64,000 nt of DNA from Dehalococcoidia bacterium. Its GTDB lineage: Bacteria; Chloroflexota; Dehalococcoidia; Lucifugimonadales; Lucifugimonadaceae. Position 1 is the stretch's first letter; the number at the start of each line of letters is the position of its first letter. The translations under genes and the position numbers were made by a program. The notes beneath the pieces are model-generated. The model was not told where the DNA came from. It was given only the letters and a program-made list of their open reading frames with translations, and searched no databases. Shown in pieces: positions 3,124 to 59,800 of this stretch. The stretch covers positions 21,600 through 85,599 of the forward strand of contig JASLLE010000003.1 of NCBI GenBank assembly GCA_030747175.1. The letters are read 5' to 3'.

Positions 3124-3885
3124 GTGTTGTGGCCTCATGTCGTCGCGCCTAACGGACTCGAAGTGTTGATCGTTGTGTGGGTGAACGTCGCCGCGACATT
3201 TGTTATCGATTTGGTATTTCGGCCCTGGGGGGGCCAATCGGTGATCCTTGTAACCGTATGGCGTCAAAGACCGCGCCCTTCGATCGCGGCAAAGGGCATG
3301 GGGTGGAGTCTTGCCATATTGGAGTGTGCCTTTCGGATCGCTCAGATCTTCAGTTTGTCGCATTGGATACGTGAATCAATATCGCTGCATTATCGGTGGG
3401 ATACGACGAAAAGATATTGGCGACCGGTCATCATTGACTTATACCTCCTCGTCGAAGTCACCACCATCGTCCTGTTTTTTGTTTTCGCGAGCGACTGGCC
3501 AACGTGGTTCATAACGGGAGTCATCACCTATTTTTTGGCGGAAACAGCCGTTAGCTCTGCCAACGTCGTCGTGTTCGGGCATTTGAGGGGTCAGCCAGCC
3601 GTCGCCAGCATCCAGCGCAACTTTGTTCTGGCGTTCATCACATTCGGTCTCTCGGTACTCGCGTTCGCAGCAATCCGGTTGGCCAATGGCGATGACTTCA
3701 AGATCGTTGCCGATCACACTCACGCTTGGGCGGACAGTCTAAAAACCGCGACCTTCATTAGCGCTGATGCCGTAACGACACTGGGGTGGACAGTGATTTC
3801 CGCTCAATTGATGTTCTCGGTCTGGATGCTCGTCGTCATGCTGAGCTGGACCATTGCTGGGTTCCCATCGAGGTCGCGGAGATGA
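3124..3885 (+). CDS. Hypothetical multi-pass membrane protein with a channel-pore-like TTLGW segment
   Basis: 253-aa ORF with several hydrophobic segments; located between polA and mutM on the same strand. Confidence 0.6.
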   Translation: MLWPHVVAPNGLEVLIVVWVNVAATFVIDLVFRPWGGQSVILVTVWRQRPRPSIAAKGMGWSLAILECAFRIAQIFSLSHWIRESISLHYRWDTTKRYWRPVIIDLYLLVEVTTIVLFFVFASDWPTWFITGVITYFLAETAVSSANVVVFGHLRGQPAVASIQRNFVLAFITFGLSVLAFAAIRLANGDDFKIVADHTHAWADSLKTATFISADAVTTLGWTVISAQLMFSVWMLVVMLSWTIAGFPSRSRR

Positions 3886-3915
3886 TGATCGACAGCACAC
3901 AGAGGATATCGGCCC

Positions 3916-4815
3916 ATGCCTGAACTTCCTGAGATCGAGGCGCTGCGGCGCTACTTACTGCGTGAGGGGCTTGTTGGGCGGACTGTTGTTGAGGTGGATG
4001 CTGACTGGCCGGGGGTTGAGGACACCGTCGATGGCATGGGCGGGTTGTCGGGGCTGGCGGGACGGCGGTTTGAGGGATTTGATCGCCGGGGTAAGCAGAT
4101 GATGGCGTCTATGAGTGCGCCTGCTGGGCGCAACCCCCTCATCCTTCGAGAGCCTCAGGATGCCGACCTCTCCCGCGTGGGTGAGAGGGGGCAAAACAAC
4201 GGACCCGACCGGGTCTTAGGGCTGCATATGGGGATGACTGGTCGGCTTGGGGTTATGGCTCCTGAGGATGAGTCGTTCCAGTATCGGCGGTTGGCTCTTT
4301 ACCTGGACGATGAGCGTCGGTTGGAGCTGGATGATGTCCGGCGCTGGGCGATGGTTCGGCTTGAGGCAGATGCGGAGACGTTCACGGCCGGGATGGGGCC
4401 GGACGCGCTTGACCCGGAGTTCACAGCGGCCGAGTTTGCGGAGCGCGTGTCGGCTCGGCGTTCGCCCATCAAATCCGTATTGCTGGACCAGAAGGTTCTG
4501 GCAGGTGTCGGCAACATCTACGCCGACGAGGCGCTTCTCATAGTTGGCATATCGCCCTCAAGACGCGCCGATCGGGTATCAGCCGGGCGGCTGGAAACGC
4601 TGCATGGGACGATCGTCGGAGTACTCAAAAACGCGCTTGCGTTCATCGAGTCGCATCCCGATAACGAGGGGCGTCCGTACGTGATCGACGCGCAGGACGA
4701 TCGCATGCAGATCACCCGCAAAGCGGGAGCGCCGTGTCCTCTGTGCGGGGGGCCCCAGAACGCGAAGAAGTTCGGAGGTAGAACGGCCTATTACTGTCCC
4801 TCCTGCCAGCACTGA
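3916..4815 (+). CDS. mutM: Formamidopyrimidine-DNA glycosylase (Fpg/MutM) with an in-frame repeat-derived insertion
   Basis: MPELPEIE N-terminus, LGLHMGMTGRL, VGNIYADEAL, C-terminal zinc finger CPLCGGPQ...YYCPSCQH. Confidence 0.93.
   Translation: MPELPEIEALRRYLLREGLVGRTVVEVDADWPGVEDTVDGMGGLSGLAGRRFEGFDRRGKQMMASMSAPAGRNPLILREPQDADLSRVGERGQNNGPDRVLGLHMGMTGRLGVMAPEDESFQYRRLALYLDDERRLELDDVRRWAMVRLEADAETFTAGMGPDALDPEFTAAEFAERVSARRSPIKSVLLDQKVLAGVGNIYADEALLIVGISPSRRADRVSAGRLETLHGTIVGVLKNALAFIESHPDNEGRPYVIDAQDDRMQITRKAGAPCPLCGGPQNAKKFGGRTAYYCPSCQH
4134..4193 (+). repeat. Palindromic repeat (CTCTCCC/GAGAGGG and TTCGAGAGCCTCAGGA types) inside mutM
   Basis: CCCTCATCCTTCGAGAGCCTCAGGATG and CTCTCCCGCGTGGGTGAGAGGGGGC match intergenic copies elsewhere in the window. 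Confidence 0.75.
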
Positions 4816-4930
4816 CATGACACCGAACGGCCCTTGGCGTTATGCCCCAGCATTCAAGGTCGGCCCGGTAAACGCATCAGCCTGCCGGACCGGCTGCAGA
4901 TAGAACGACAATTTCAGGGAGGTACTTCAG

Positions 4931-12505: not shown

Positions 12506-12568
12506 TGAGGCTTTCACCCGTGTCCTGAGGCTCTCGAAGCTTGTACTGAGCCTGTCGAATGTGGACCG
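12506..12568 (+). repeat. TCCTGAGGCTCTCGAAG...TGAGCCTGTCGAATG-type repeat
   Basis: Related copies at 16378-16530, 31833-31872, 51797-51848. Confidence 0.7.
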
Positions 12569-12779: not shown

Positions 12780-15557
12780 ATGGCCGAGGAGTACATAGGC
12801 CGGTACCAGATCATCGAGACGATCGCGTCCGGCAGCCAGGGCGCGGTCCACCGCGCGTTTGATCCCCAGCTCAACCGCATCGTCGCTCTGAAGGTTCTCC
12901 TCCCCGCGCTCATAAGCCAGACGCAACACCTGGAGCGTTTCCGGCGTGAGGCCACCCTCATGTCGGCTATCGACCACCCCAACGTCGTCAAGATCCTTGA
13001 CGTCGGATCGGACGGCGACACCCACTACCTGGCGATGGAGTTGCTGCCCGAGAGCCTGTCCCGGATTATTGAGACCTCTCGCCAGCTCCCGATCGAGAAC
13101 GCGGTCCGGTTTGCCATCCAGGTGGCTGACGGCCTCGCAGCCGTCCACGATGCCGGGATCATCCACCGCGATATCAAACCTCAGAACATCCTGATCGATG
13201 CCGAAGGCGTGGCGAAGGTCACGGACTTCGGCATAGCTCGCGGCGACATGCTCGGGACGCTGACAGCGACCGGCGTGATGATGGGAACGCCCTACTACAT
13301 GTCGCCGGAACAGGCGGCAGGCGGCGGGGTTGACGCACGGTCCGACATCTACGCGCTAGGTGGTGTCCTCTACCAGATGCTCGCCGGCGAGGTGGTCTTC
13401 AACGCCACCACGCCGCTGGCGATCCTGCGATTACACATCGACGAGCCGCCAAGGCCGGTGGAGTCGTTGCGGGCTGATGTGCCCGCGGCGGTCAGCGGAA
13501 TCGTCATGCGGGCGCTGGCGAAGAGGTCGGAGGAGCGGTTCGAGAGCGCGGACGATATGGCAGAGGCGTTGCGGGCCGCTATGCCGGGCGTTGCGGAGTC
13601 GGCGCCGGTGGTACGGACGCCGAGAGACGTGCCGACAACCCAACACTCTTCACACCAGCAAGATACGAGGCAACCCGCCGAGGAATCCCCACCACATCCC
13701 CCCGAGCCACTGGAAAGCACTCCGGTCCCAGAGATAGGTTCTGACCGGGTCCGGGCCTCACAGCGGCGCGCACTGCCACTTGGATGGATTGCGATGGCCT
13801 TAGCGATTGTGACAATCCCGGTGATGGCTCTCATGAGTTTCGAGCTAATCAGTTCCACTGGCGGTTCTAGCACCTCGCCGTCATTGGCCCCTACCCCGTT
13901 CCCGGTAGAAGCGACGCCGACAACCAACCAACTCCGCGAACCGGTCGCAACCACTGTCCCGTCCGAACAGGCAATCCCCACGTCTTTACCGGTGCCCGCC
14001 TCTGTGCCGACTCCCCCATCACCGCCACCGACGCCCACTCCTGTTCCCATTTTCGTACAGCCGTCCGCGCCCTTACATAACCTGGGTAGTGTGCCGACCG
14101 GAGTGATTGTCAGTGTCGCCGGAGTGTCGCCATTGTCCTCCGGGCCGTCCATCGGAGACGGGGGCATCGCAACGGCGGCCAAGCTTTCGAGCCCATTCGG
14201 TGTCACGGTCGGCTCGGACGGAACTGTCTACATCGCCGACTCCAGAAACAATCGTGTTCGGCGCGTTGATCCTTTGACGGGCGTGATCCTCACTGTGGCG
14301 GGCACTGGTACCAATGGGTACAGCGGGGATGGCGGCTCTGCAGTGGCAGCGATGCTCAATTTTTCGGGCGATGTCGCGATAGATAACGATGGAAATCTGT
14401 ACATCGCTGACTCTGGCAACAGTCGAATTCGTCACCTCGATGCCACGTCTGGGATCATCAGCACTATCGCCGGGAATGGCACACCAGGTTTCAGCGGCGA
14501 CGGCGGGCCGGCGTTCGAAGCGCAACTCAACGGTCCGGGCGCCCTGACGCTGGACACTGAAGGACATCTGTATTTCGCAGACAGCTCTAACCATCGAATT
14601 CGCCGCGTAGACGCTCGCACAAGAGTAATCACCACTGTCGCGGGTTCGGGAGGTTCCGAAGACGGCGGTGATGACGGTGATGACGGTCTGGCTACTGAGG
14701 CGCAGATTCCATATCCGGATAGTGTGTCTGTGGACACTGGTGGCAACCTGTACGTCGTCACCTCACGGCAAGATCGAGTACGCCGAGTCGATGCCGCCAC
14801 CGGGATCATCACCACCATCGCGGGTACAGGCGAATCACGTTACAGCGGGGATGGCGGGCCCGCGATTGAGGCACCACTCATGGGGGCGCGAGGCGTGTTG
14901 GTGGATGCCGAAGGAAACCTGTACATCGCGGACGCCTGGAACTATCGAGTGCGGCGTGTTGACGCCGGCACAGGGATCATTATCACCATCGCTGGTAACG
15001 GAATACGCGGTTACGACGGCGATGGCGGTCTGGCCACAGAGGCGCAACTTGACTTCCCAACGGGAATGTCGCTGGACACCGAAGGCAACCTCTACATCGC
15101 TGACACATACAACGACCGAATACGACGAGTTGATGCCGCCACCGGGATCATCACCACAATTGCTGGCACGGACGACGTAGTGAATAACACCGGAGATGGG
15201 GGGTTAGCTACGGCGACGAAGCTTACCTATCCCGTTGGTATTTCCGTTAGCCCTGCCGGAGACCTGTACATAAGTAATTTAGAGGATCCACGTGTGCTCC
15301 GTGTTGACGCAAACACCGGGGTAATCAGTTCAGTTGTCGGCAACGGTGATTCAGGTTATGGCGGCGATGGCGGCCCTGCGAACCAGGCGCAACTTGACAA
15401 CCCCATTGGCGTTTCTGTCGGCAACGACGGCAACTTGTTCATAGCAGACACAGGAAATCATCGGGTACGCCATGTACACGGCGAAACCGGGGTAGTCACA
15501 ACTGTCGCCGGGACTGGCGAGCCAGGTTATCGCGGTGATGGCGGCCCGGCCACATAG
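12780..15557 (+). CDS. Eukaryotic-like Ser/Thr protein kinase with TM segment and extracytoplasmic NHL repeats (interrupted by in-frame TAG)
   Basis: Kinase motifs IIHRDIKPQN, VTDFGIA, MSPEQA; TM segment; Pro/Thr-rich linker; about 8 NHL units (GNLYIADxxNxRIRRVDaaTG). Confidence 0.9.
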   Translation: MAEEYIGRYQIIETIASGSQGAVHRAFDPQLNRIVALKVLLPALISQTQHLERFRREATLMSAIDHPNVVKILDVGSDGDTHYLAMELLPESLSRIIETSRQLPIENAVRFAIQVADGLAAVHDAGIIHRDIKPQNILIDAEGVAKVTDFGIARGDMLGTLTATGVMMGTPYYMSPEQAAGGGVDARSDIYALGGVLYQMLAGEVVFNATTPLAILRLHIDEPPRPVESLRADVPAAVSGIVMRALAKRSEERFESADDMAEALRAAMPGVAESAPVVRTPRDVPTTQHSSHQQDTRQPAEESPPHPPEPLESTPVPEIGSDRVRASQRRALPLGWIAMALAIVTIPVMALMSFELISSTGGSSTSPSLAPTPFPVEATPTTNQLREPVATTVPSEQAIPTSLPVPASVPTPPSPPPTPTPVPIFVQPSAPLHNLGSVPTGVIVSVAGVSPLSSGPSIGDGGIATAAKLSSPFGVTVGSDGTVYIADSRNNRVRRVDPLTGVILTVAGTGTNGYSGDGGSAVAAMLNFSGDVAIDNDGNLYIADSGNSRIRHLDATSGIISTIAGNGTPGFSGDGGPAFEAQLNGPGALTLDTEGHLYFADSSNHRIRRVDARTRVITTVAGSGGSEDGGDDGDDGLATEAQIPYPDSVSVDTGGNLYVVTSRQDRVRRVDAATGIITTIAGTGESRYSGDGGPAIEAPLMGARGVLVDAEGNLYIADAWNYRVRRVDAGTGIIITIAGNGIRGYDGDGGLATEAQLDFPTGMSLDTEGNLYIADTYNDRIRRVDAATGIITTIAGTDDVVNNTGDGGLATATKLTYPVGISVSPAGDLYISNLEDPRVLRVDANTGVISSVVGNGDSGYGGDGGPANQAQLDNPIGVSVGNDGNLFIADTGNHRVRHVHGETGVVTTVAGTGEPGYRGDGGPAT

Positions 15558-16150
15558 GCGCAAATCGATTCTCCAGTTGGTGTGGATGTGGACTCTCACG
15601 GGAACCTGTACGTTTCCGGCTCAAATGTTGTGCGGCGCGTGGATGCGATCACCAGAGTAATCACCACCGTTGTAGGCACGGGTGAATCGGGTTATGACGG
15701 CGATGGCCGCCTTGCTATTGAGGCGCAGCTGTCCGCTCCTGTCGGCGTGGCAATTGATTCAGAAGGGAACTTATACGTAGCAGACTCGTTCAGTAATCGA
15801 ATTCGGCGAGTGGACGCGACCACCGGGATAATATCCACAGTCGCGGGTACCGGCGATACCGGTGGGGGCGGCGATGGAGGTCTGGCCACAGAAGCGCAAA
15901 TCTATACCCCAAACGACGTAGTTGTGGACGCCGAGGGACACATTTTTGTCGCCGCTTTTAGCGACAATCGAGTACGGCGGGTAGATGCGGTGACAGGGGT
16001 TATCTCTACTGTCGCGGGCACGCGTGAATGGGGTTATGACGGTGATGGAGGCCCGGCAGGCGAGGCAATAATCAGGGGCCCGACCAGCCTGTCTTTGGAC
16101 GCAGAGGGAAACTTGTACATCGCCGACAGAGGTAACGGCCTGATCCGTGT
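14105..16150 (+). repeat. Degenerate in-frame tandem repeat encoding about 12 NHL units, period about 168 bp
   Basis: Recurring GGNAACCTGTACATCGC...CGCGTNGATGCC...GGCGATGGCGG. Confidence 0.85.
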
Positions 16151-16593: not shown

Positions 16594-16660
16594 CCTCCCT
16601 CACCCTTCCGGCCAGCGGAAGGGCAGGCCCCAACCCTCTCCCACCGGGAGAGGGGCAACG
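16594..16660 (+). repeat. CCCTCACCCTTCCGG...CCGGAAGGG / CCCTCTCCC...GGGAGAGGGG nested palindrome
   Basis: Near-identical to 23513-23580 and to the reverse orientation of 22401-22458. Confidence 0.85.
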
Positions 16661-16717: not shown

Positions 16718-18751
16718 CTAATCCCCACCTCCTGCCGGCGCGCCCAACGGTTCCGGAGCCTCTTCAGATGGCGACGGCGCCCGTTCCACTCCCTCAACCC
16801 TGACGTCTGGCAGCCAGTTCAGGAACCCGGGCAGGTACCAGTTCCTGTCGCCCAGGAGTTTCATCGTTGACGGCACGAGTACTGATCGGACGATCGTGGC
16901 GTCGATCAAGATCGCAACTGCCAGTCCGAAACCGAACTGTGAGGTCGTGATCAGCTCGCCGGCCGCAAAGCCGCCGAATACGGCGACCATGATGAGCGCA
17001 GCGCCGGTGATCAGGCCCGCCGTTGAGCGAACGCCGAACGCGACAGCGCTGGCGTTGTCGCCCGTCTCGTCGTACTTCTCACGAATCCGGCTGATCAGGA
17101 ACACCTGGTAGTCCATCGAGAGACCGAACAGGATGGTGAACAGCATCAACGGGAGCCAGGGTTGGATTATCGGCGTTTGCTGCAGACCGAAGATCTCGTT
17201 CAGGAAACCTTCCTGGAACACCAGGACCAGGATCCCGTAGGCCGCGCCCACGGAAAGCAGGTTCATGATGATCGCCTTGATCGGCACGACTATCGACCGG
17301 AATACGACCGTCAGCAGGAGGAAGCTGAGCCCGAGTACAAGGGCGATCACCCACGGCTGGTATGACGACGTGGTGTCGAGCAGGTCTATCTCTTCCGAAG
17401 TTAGACCGCCCACGAACGCCTGTGACGGCGTGCCTCTGAATGCATTGGGCGCGTATTCGTCCCGGAGCATCCTTACCCCGTCTACCGACTCCGCGCTTTG
17501 AGCGCCGCCGGTCAACGGGAAGGTGATCAAGCCAAAAGTACCTGACGCGTTGACCTCAAGTTCGGAAGGTGGGCCGAATGCGCTGTCGGTCGCCACCGCT
17601 GCCTTGAGGTCCGATATCGCCTGCTGGGTGGTCGCTTCATTAATGTCGCCAACGATTACGACTTCGGCGGGTGCTCCAATAATGAATCCGAACTCGGACT
17701 TCAGCACCTCAAAGCCCTGCTTGGACTGGAATTCATCAGGCAGGTCTTCGACGCCGGAGGAACCGAGGTTGATGTTAAAGAACGGAATGGTTGCGGCGAC
17801 CATGAAGGCGGCAGTTACGATGAGCGCCACCCAGGGCCGACGCATGACTCCACGCGTGATCCAGGCCCAGAATCCACCGCCACCGTGTTCACTTCCGTCG
17901 TCCAGTTCACGTGGCCTGATGAACGGGACTTTAAAGCGGTTCACCCTGTCGCCCATGATGCTGAGCGTCGCCGGAAGCAAAGTCTGGGTGGCCAGCACAG
18001 CGACGAAGACTACAGTGATGGCGCCAATTCCGAGGCTGACGAACACGCTCTGCGGAATCACAAGCAAACCGATGAGCGCGAACACGACGGTCAGGCCACT
18101 GAAGAACACGGCCCGACCGGCGGTGGAGCCGGCCATCGCGATCGCGTCGATCTTCTCGAGTCCTCGTTGCCGCTCTTCACGGAAACGAGAAACAATAAAC
18201 AGGGCGTAATCGATACCGACGGCAAGCCCGATCATGATGATGATGTTCTGAACAAACGCGTTCAGTTCAAATACCGTGCTTACAATCGAAACCGTACCGA
18301 TGGCTATCACAATCGATCCAACCGCGAGCACGATCGGTATGAACATCGCCGCTAACACCCCGAGGACGATCGCCAGAATGACCATAGCGAGCGGGATGGC
18401 GAACATCTCACCGCGCTCAAGGTCTGACTGGTTGCCTTCAAGGAAGTCGACCGAGAATGTCGCCTCTCCAAAGATGAACACCTCATACCCGGCGGGGAAA
18501 GGTGTCTCCTCAAGTACGTCGTGGACATCCCCGATGTTGTCGCCCGCGGCCTTGAAGTCGTCCGCCATCAGCACCGGGATTACCGTGGTGCGCCGGTCTG
18601 GAGATACCTGGGCATCGGCGTCCGTGTCGTAGAAACTGACGGCGCTCGTCACGATTTCTGGACCGAGACCGGCGATCTCCTCGGTCAGTGACTCGACCGT
18701 AGACCGGAACTCGGCGTCATCGACCGTCGCACTTATGGAGCGGACGATCAC
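16718..18751 (-). CDS. MMPL/RND-family transporter, main portion
   Basis: IMIGLAVGIDYALFIVSRFREE and FGLSMDYQVFLISRIREKYDETGDN motifs; multiple TM segments. Confidence 0.9.
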   Translation of the reverse strand: MIVRSISATVDDAEFRSTVESLTEEIAGLGPEIVTSAVSFYDTDADAQVSPDRRTTVIPVLMADDFKAAGDNIGDVHDVLEETPFPAGYEVFIFGEATFSVDFLEGNQSDLERGEMFAIPLAMVILAIVLGVLAAMFIPIVLAVGSIVIAIGTVSIVSTVFELNAFVQNIIIMIGLAVGIDYALFIVSRFREERQRGLEKIDAIAMAGSTAGRAVFFSGLTVVFALIGLLVIPQSVFVSLGIGAITVVFVAVLATQTLLPATLSIMGDRVNRFKVPFIRPRELDDGSEHGGGGFWAWITRGVMRRPWVALIVTAAFMVAATIPFFNINLGSSGVEDLPDEFQSKQGFEVLKSEFGFIIGAPAEVVIVGDINEATTQQAISDLKAAVATDSAFGPPSELEVNASGTFGLITFPLTGGAQSAESVDGVRMLRDEYAPNAFRGTPSQAFVGGLTSEEIDLLDTTSSYQPWVIALVLGLSFLLLTVVFRSIVVPIKAIIMNLLSVGAAYGILVLVFQEGFLNEIFGLQQTPIIQPWLPLMLFTILFGLSMDYQVFLISRIREKYDETGDNASAVAFGVRSTAGLITGAALIMVAVFGGFAAGELITTSQFGFGLAVAILIDATIVRSVLVPSTMKLLGDRNWYLPGFLNWLPDVRVEGVERAPSPSEEAPEPLGAPAGGGD

Positions 18752-46732: not shown

Positions 46733-47785
46733 ATGAACAGCGAGCGGATGCAGCGGAGGATCAACGATCTTCTCGACCAGGCGGAAGAGGCTGTCGCCGC
46801 GCGCGACTGGAACGGGGTACGGGAACTGTCTGAGGCCGTTCTCGCCGTAGACGGAAACAACGCGGATGCGAGCGGATTCCTGGAGATGGCCCAACGCGCC
46901 ACCGCAGTAAGAGACGGCTCAAGCTCTGAATCTACTATCGGAGAGGGCCGGGGCGAGGAAGAAGCCTCATCCGCATCCGCCGTTGTAGGGGCGTATGGCA
47001 ATGCGCCCACGACCGGCCCTTCGAGAACCTCAGGACACGGTTCGGTCCCAACCCCAACTTCCTTTGCCAACGCCCGCTACACCGTCTCCAGCTTCCTCGG
47101 CGAGGGCGGCAAGAAGCGCGTCTACCAGGCCCACGACACCCTGCTGGACCGCGAGGTCGCCTTCGCCCTCATCAAGACGGAAGGCTTTGACCAGACCTCG
47201 AAGGAGCGCATCTCCCGGGAGGCCCAGGCCATGGGACGCCTGGGTGTGCATCCCAACATCGTCGCCGTGCTGGATCTGGGACAGGAAGACGATGGCACGC
47301 CTTACATGGTCACGGAGCTAATGGTTGGCGGTGACGTGGAGGCGCTGCTTGAGGCCGTGGATCTCGGAGGGCAGGCACAGGGGCCTGCCCCTACGGACGG
47401 GCCGATTCGGGATGACGTTGTTGGGGCGGTCCCCCGTGGCCGCCCGGCCGGTGGTCTTTCCCTGGAACGCACCATCGAGATAGGAAAGGCCGTCTGCGAG
47501 GGATTGGAGTTCGCTCACGCACGCGGCATCGTTCATCGGGACCTGAAACCCGGAAACGTCTGGTTGACGGAAGACGGAACTGCCAAGATCGGAGACTTCG
47601 GGCTTGCGGTGATGACCGACCGATCACGCCTTACCCGCGAGGGGATGATGGTGGGTACGGTGTCGTACATGCCCCCCCGAGCAGGCCACCGGCGGCGAGA
47701 TCACCCCGAGGGCCGACCTATACTCGCTCGGGGCCATGCTCTACGAGATGGTGACCGGCAGGCCGCCGTTCCTTGGCGACGATGA
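46733..47785 (+). CDS. Ser/Thr protein kinase portion of a kinase-AAA ATPase-TPR-like regulator (frameshifted at 3' end)
   Basis: FLGEGGKKRVYQAHD, IVHRDLKPGNVWL, IGDFGLAV; loses kinase homology after SYMPP at a C7 run. Confidence 0.88.
   Translation: MNSERMQRRINDLLDQAEEAVAARDWNGVRELSEAVLAVDGNNADASGFLEMAQRATAVRDGSSSESTIGEGRGEEEASSASAVVGAYGNAPTTGPSRTSGHGSVPTPTSFANARYTVSSFLGEGGKKRVYQAHDTLLDREVAFALIKTEGFDQTSKERISREAQAMGRLGVHPNIVAVLDLGQEDDGTPYMVTELMVGGDVEALLEAVDLGGQAQGPAPTDGPIRDDVVGAVPRGRPAGGLSLERTIEIGKAVCEGLEFAHARGIVHRDLKPGNVWLTEDGTAKIGDFGLAVMTDRSRLTREGMMVGTVSYMPPRAGHRRRDHPEGRPILARGHALRDGDRQAAVPWRR
46985..47008 (+). repeat. GTAGGGGCGTATGGCAATGCGCCC hairpin inside kinase CDS
   Basis: 23/24 match to the 63648 copy; translated in frame as VGAYGNAP. 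Confidence 0.85.
47369..47445 (+). repeat. Two GGGGC-type hairpins inside kinase domain CDS
   Basis: GGGCAGGC-ACAGGG-GCCTGCCCCTAC and GTTGGGGCGGTCCCCCGTGGCCGCCC. Confidence 0.8.
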
Positions 47786-59712: not shown

Positions 59713-59800
59713 TGCGTCGGTCCCCTCTCCCGGCGGGAGAGGGGATACGCTGCTGCTCAACGGACCCTTCGAGAGCCTCAGGGTGGGTTTGTGCAAAGCG

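Follow-up and report, generated by a model that had tools for sequence, protein, structure and literature searches.

In an earlier paper (PMC3733652), REPs are described inside open reading frames; they keep the frame, often lie in DNA-repair genes, occur singly or in groups and encode 20-30 (up to 82) residues. The paper also describes the Rickettsia elements, a REP insertion at one site in recB of two Xanthomonas species and the presence of GTAG repeats in Chloroflexi; the term Dehalococcoidia does not occur in it, and mutM goes unmentioned in the section consulted. These intragenic REPs, already reported in DNA-repair genes, are the closest known class to two repeat types, A and B, found within mutM of an uncultured Dehalococcoidia bacterium: both sets consist of short, high-copy hairpins, mostly intergenic, with some copies in frame within ORFs and with DNA-repair hosts (PMC3733652). 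Contrary to the GTAG/CGTC REPs of that paper, neither A nor B bears the GTAG/CGTC tag in the copies listed. The original prediction had compared the mutM insert to the Rickettsia palindromic elements, and the comparison stands for the mode of action, as those are also palindromic, lie between and within genes in frame and leave host proteins that likely work, and A and B likewise have intergenic copies as well as in-frame copies within genes. Nevertheless, the lineage is unrelated, RPE-1 is described as a longer insertion (PMC3733652), and the likeness is one of description; the closer home is that of the REP-like elements with intragenic copies. The in-frame insertion of a REP is already known, and what is new here is the lineage and a hotspot in a kinase loop.

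The window, that is, the whole stretch of 64,000 nucleotides that was analysed, belongs to a genome (G000) of 3.19 Mb in 154 contigs with an estimated contamination of 3.8%. Its mutM gene (Table 1) encodes an intact MutM/Fpg, in which the Pfam domains Fapy_DNA_glyco, H2TH and zf-FPG_IleRS all exceed their cut-offs, and it is the only Fpg/Nei-like match in this genome (E <= 0.001). The protein has the Pro2-Glu3 N-terminus, the conserved Lys60, the H2TH domain and the four-Cys zinc finger of the family; among its signature residues P2, E3, K60, N200, R289, C274, C277 and C294 are invariant and C297 is nearly so. The ORF is uninterrupted, in agreement with the earlier claim that the frame and the zinc finger are preserved. 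In comparison with MutM proteins of the same genus, the extra residues fall between K60..M66 and VLGLHM, the protein reading KQMMASM-[31 codons]-DR-VLGLHM. An extra segment had been predicted correctly, with a length of about 34 residues that is slightly too high: it measures 31 codons, or 93 bp. An intein or an intron was discarded, since there is no such domain and the insert is too short, and Rfam contains no known structured RNA matching positions 3800-4900. Between polA and mutM, a 253-codon ORF (window 3124-3885) has no Pfam match, and a weak relative (32% identity) turned up at just one of the homologous loci checked, that of G001.

Table 1. Coordinates of the mutM insert, its component repeats and related features. 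Positions are those of the window unless a contig is named.
Feature	Position	Strand	Remarks
mutM (Fpg)	3916..4815	+	299 codons, all three Fpg domains
In-frame insert, 93 bp (31 codons)	4114..4206	+	Between Met66 and Asp98, turn of beta-hairpin 61-66 / 99-104
Small hairpin GCGCCtgctgGGCGC	4117..4131	+	5' end of insert; single copy in 0.98 Mb
Type A element, outer arms CCCCCTCATC ... GAGAGGGGGCAAAAC	4134..4197	+	Interrupted by type B
Type B hairpin CATCCT-tc-GAG-agc-CTCAGGATG (= CATCCT-tc-GAG-agc-CTC-AGGATG)	4140..4162	+	Nested in A
Type A core palindrome CCTCTCCCGCGTGGGTGAGAGG	4167..4188	+	Sequence match to genomic repeats
Intergenic type A copy	16635..16653	+	Same window; others 22404, 23557, 34579, 39594, 39747, 51703, 59724
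Intergenic type B copy	59767..59785	+	Same window; others 12539(-), 16488, 23612, 34682
Ser/Thr kinase-AAA family gene	46733..47785	+	In-frame GTAG-type repeat plus a type B copy (47019-47034), upstream of the kinase domain
RAYT-like Y1 transposase	L126 about 16803-17321	+	Identical GTAGGGGCGACCCCCTGTGGTCGCCC (GTAG repeat) on either side
TPR-kinase-AAA paralogs with REP-derived in-frame segments	L211 5879-9949, L223 974-4978, L232 1-3618, L240 5592-9551, L245-L274		Kinase loop, pre-kinase linker
Terminase large subunit (prophage-like)	L229 1246-2754	-	Two in-frame type B copies, inverted orientation, before nuclease part

The insert had been described as a single palindromic repeat. It is indeed made of repeats, but it is a composite of two hairpin families spread over the genome, with B nested in A. 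The motifs quoted in the original prediction are present (CATCCTTCGAGAGCCTCAGGATG at 4140-4162, CCTCTCCCGCGTGGGTGAGAGGGGGC at 4167-4192) and do match intergenic repeats of the window, as was claimed (B at 12539(-), 16488 and 59767; A at 16635, 22404, 23557 and 59724). Type B sits between the CCCTCATC arm and the core of the mutM type A copy, and if 18 bases are set aside when the sequences are compared, the type A copy is continuous and its frame is the same. Neither repeat accounts for the outermost parts of the insert, about 20 bp on the 5' side and 9 bp on the 3' side. As single-stranded DNA the insert folds into nested hairpins (z about -2).

Both families are abundant, and the central claim of an in-frame palindromic repeat inside mutM is borne out. 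Type A (about 45 bp) can be summarized as CCCTCAYCC...CCTCTCCC-loop-GGGAGAGG..GCAAAA, the full element reading about CCCCCTCACCCCAACCCTCTCCC-loop-GGGAGAGGGGGCAAA, and type B is about 20 bp long. This genome holds 128 exact copies of the type A core CCTCTCCCN2-8GGGAGAGG and, if up to 3 mismatches are allowed, 163 of the type B 19-mer CTTCGAGAGCCTCAGGATG; the reversed controls gave 0 in both cases, and the matches are far above chance. The type A core was also counted in other genomes (74 in G005, 79 in G004, 44 in G003, 28 in G001, 15 in G007, 8 in G002 and 1 in G006; reversed control 0). The two repeat types in the insert match genomic repeats at 19/19 and 27/28 bases. Coding status was assessed with a home-made gene caller in a sample from G000 (0.98 Mb) and G005 (0.33 Mb) that was partly picked for repeat-bearing contigs, so that per-genome rates should not be extrapolated from it. 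In the 0.98 Mb of G000, 108 of 118 type A copies (91%) and 102 of 115 type B copies (89%) are intergenic, against 13% of random positions. Since A and B are overwhelmingly intergenic, mutM is a rare coding exception. The copies cluster, with 57 neighbours at <=100 bp (random mean 29, maximum 46 in 300 randomisations). The type B hairpin is supported by covariation, because the pair -2/+16 is complementary in 78 of 98 copies and the best of 1000 shuffles reached 69. The general traits of REP-like elements are all found in these repeats: a short hairpin unit, high copy number, a mostly intergenic location and clustered or composite arrangements.

The structure of the protein was also considered, as had been proposed. 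The AlphaFold2 model (mean pLDDT 88, about 50 in the insert) retains the Fpg fold and places the insert at a disordered hairpin turn joining strands 61-66 and 99-104; by Foldseek, it matches the solved MutM structure 1r2y with a TM of 0.86 (by target length). The dN/dS of mutM is ~0.08-0.11 in pairs with or without the insert. As this equals the values of insert-free homologues and is similar to that of polA, the insert-bearing gene is under the usual constraint. Selection and the model suggest that the insert-bearing MutM is a working enzyme. A catalytic role of the inserted residues is improbable. Unrelated Fpg proteins have loops of up to 60 residues, mostly 13-14, at the same turn (approximate lengths, measured by regular expression); since they also differ in length there, the turn tolerates extra residues. 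This counts at the same time against the reading favored below, as the site tolerates length for other reasons as well.

The reading that we favor, with a probability of about 87%, is that mutM carries, as its insert, a coding copy of dispersed REP-like hairpins, with A in the Fpg turn and B nested in an arm of A; this copy forms a disordered surface loop in a working enzyme. Several of its elements are shown directly: the insert matches repeats that are numerous and biased towards intergenic DNA, congeners have an empty site, the frame is conserved, the model combines disorder with an intact fold and the gene is under purifying selection. In that case, a type A hairpin element would have entered the Fpg N-terminal domain at a turn that joins two of its beta-strands. 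Copies would arrive through a transposition-like process acting on hairpins, as supposed for RAYT transposases on GTAG REPs, and selection would then have purged those that broke the frame. Five of the six frames are stop-free in A, and five of six in B; because the repeats are mostly stop-free and the turn tolerates residues, a copy whose length is divisible by three could survive, and it would have persisted as a disordered surface loop. B may have entered A after A entered mutM. Yet some intergenic A copies carry another hairpin where B sits (21 TTCC..GGAA and 5 TTCGA, the 5 including the mutM copy), and the A+B composite may therefore have arrived as one piece.

The history of the insertion can be followed in the same genus. 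The insert is absent from the four congeners with a readable site, which read KQLIAKLDTG-VLGLHM (G007, G002 and G006) or KQLVVQMDRG-FLGLHM (G001), and from other family members. In G001 there are two slightly different mutM pieces on separate contigs (L119 7065-7269; L136), both insert-free, possibly from two strains in one bin. The original prediction had proposed to align relatives in order to see whether the insert is strain-specific. It is not confined to one species, as MutM of G005 has 26 extra codons at the same turn, with a decayed A copy that shares the orientation and the frame of the one in G000. Both inserts lie inside the ORF with a length that is a multiple of three (93 bp in G000, 78 bp in G005).

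Two scenarios may explain this distribution, and they are about equally likely: a single ancestral insertion, or an independent entry of type A into this turn in each of G000 and G005. The latter finds an argument in the polA protein tree, which places G000 (89/97 support) with the G007 group, whose members lack the insert. The DNA trees leave a trichotomy, and a sister relationship of the two genomes is rejected neither by mutM (AU p = 0.14) nor by polA (0.31). The identical orientation and frame and the slightly similar 3' flanks (p = 0.017) rather suggest a common origin; nevertheless, the 5' flanks show no homology (p = 0.60) and several intergenic A copies are closer to the G005 insert than the window insert is. 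The kinase loops described below also show that one site can be filled repeatedly, and the recB genes of two Xanthomonas species provide a published parallel (PMC3733652).

Other explanations of the insert fare less well. It could be a functional module, kept for a useful property of MutM or of its mRNA, for instance a tail that binds a partner or a hairpin in the transcript that affects translation. The hairpin is still foldable in G000, but the G005 insert folds no better than shuffles (z = 0.42), other species do without the insert and the segment is predicted to be disordered, which makes this explanation unlikely. Alternatively, the segment could be an ancestral variable Fpg loop that resembles the repeats by chance, in which case there would have been no insertion. 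The long loops of several distant Fpg proteins at the same turn are congruent with this idea. Yet congeners and family members lack the extra residues, and two independent repeat types match genomic repeats almost base by base with null controls; the empty sites in G001, G002, G006 and G007 lead us to reject the ancestral loop, which is very improbable, and to side with the original prediction of an insertion. An assembly or binning artefact fusing mutM with intergenic DNA might be feared in such a fragmented and slightly contaminated assembly, but it is hardly credible given the intact frame and downstream gene, the dN/dS of 0.08 and the same kind of insert at the same place in the separate assembly of G005.

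The mutM insert has company, as kinase paralogs and a terminase gene carry such segments too. Proteins of the TPR-Ser/Thr-kinase-AAA family (TPR-kinase-AAA_16-TPR) contain in-frame repeats in two places, one ahead of the kinase domain and the other in the loop from GGDVEALL to LERTIEIGKAVCEG. This loop has 10 residues in four G004 copies and 35-82 in sixteen others, most of which are visibly assembled from A, B, GTAG-type and other hairpins in differing combinations, frames and orientations. Recurrent intergenic 12-mers cover 16.1% of the kinase linker bases against 0.33% of the rest of the genes, a set drawn from intergenic DNA of G000 that under-counts the repeats of other species. The kinase-linker repeats GTAGGGGCG...CGCCC bear the GTAG/CGTC tag. 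Least expected among these results is that one kinase loop has been filled repeatedly; a literature search, which was not full, found no paper on this, and it sets the present case apart from the intragenic REPs of PMC3733652, since here one loop in many paralogs is filled by different repeat families. It is tempting to conclude that, across the genus, unrelated hairpin families recurrently supply coding sequence, refilling the same loops (the kinase loop after GGDVEALL, the pre-kinase linker and the Fpg turn), which would diversify signalling paralogs and may be selected in kinases; this generalization is possible but doubtful.

In the window, the kinase gene at 46733-47785 switches to another frame past SYMPP (around 47664-47683), because of which it is considered frameshifted or mis-assembled. 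Several candidate coding copies were dropped: L127 12858-14156, with type A near the start, whose start codon is likely misplaced, and L225, L235 and L231, whose matches are weak (reversed-sequence control 3/827 genes). Another repetitive gene of the window, at 14256-16066, encodes a repeat protein that looks NHL-like by eye; it consists of tandem copies of a unit of about 171 bp, of which the copy near 15465-15559 reads CACATAGGC, possibly with an in-frame stop.

The mobilization of GTAG REPs is attributed to RAYT transposases. A single RAYT was found in G000, an incomplete assembly, and none of the other congeners searched has a Y1_Tnp match. In a way that recalls the RAYT/REPtron systems (PMC2817692, PMC3733652), this RAYT-like Y1 transposase is flanked by two identical repeat copies, but these are GTAG repeats and not A or B. 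Because of these flanks, the transposase fits the GTAG repeats in the kinases and not directly A or B.

The in-frame insertion of palindromic repeats, known in Rickettsia and other bacteria, now includes uncultured Dehalococcoidia, where a repair enzyme is the host, and the mutM insert illustrates how "junk" repeats become protein sequence. The kinase family, in which the same loop is empty or variously filled in related genomes, provides a natural series for following the route from repeat to protein and for examining whether these additions are neutral.
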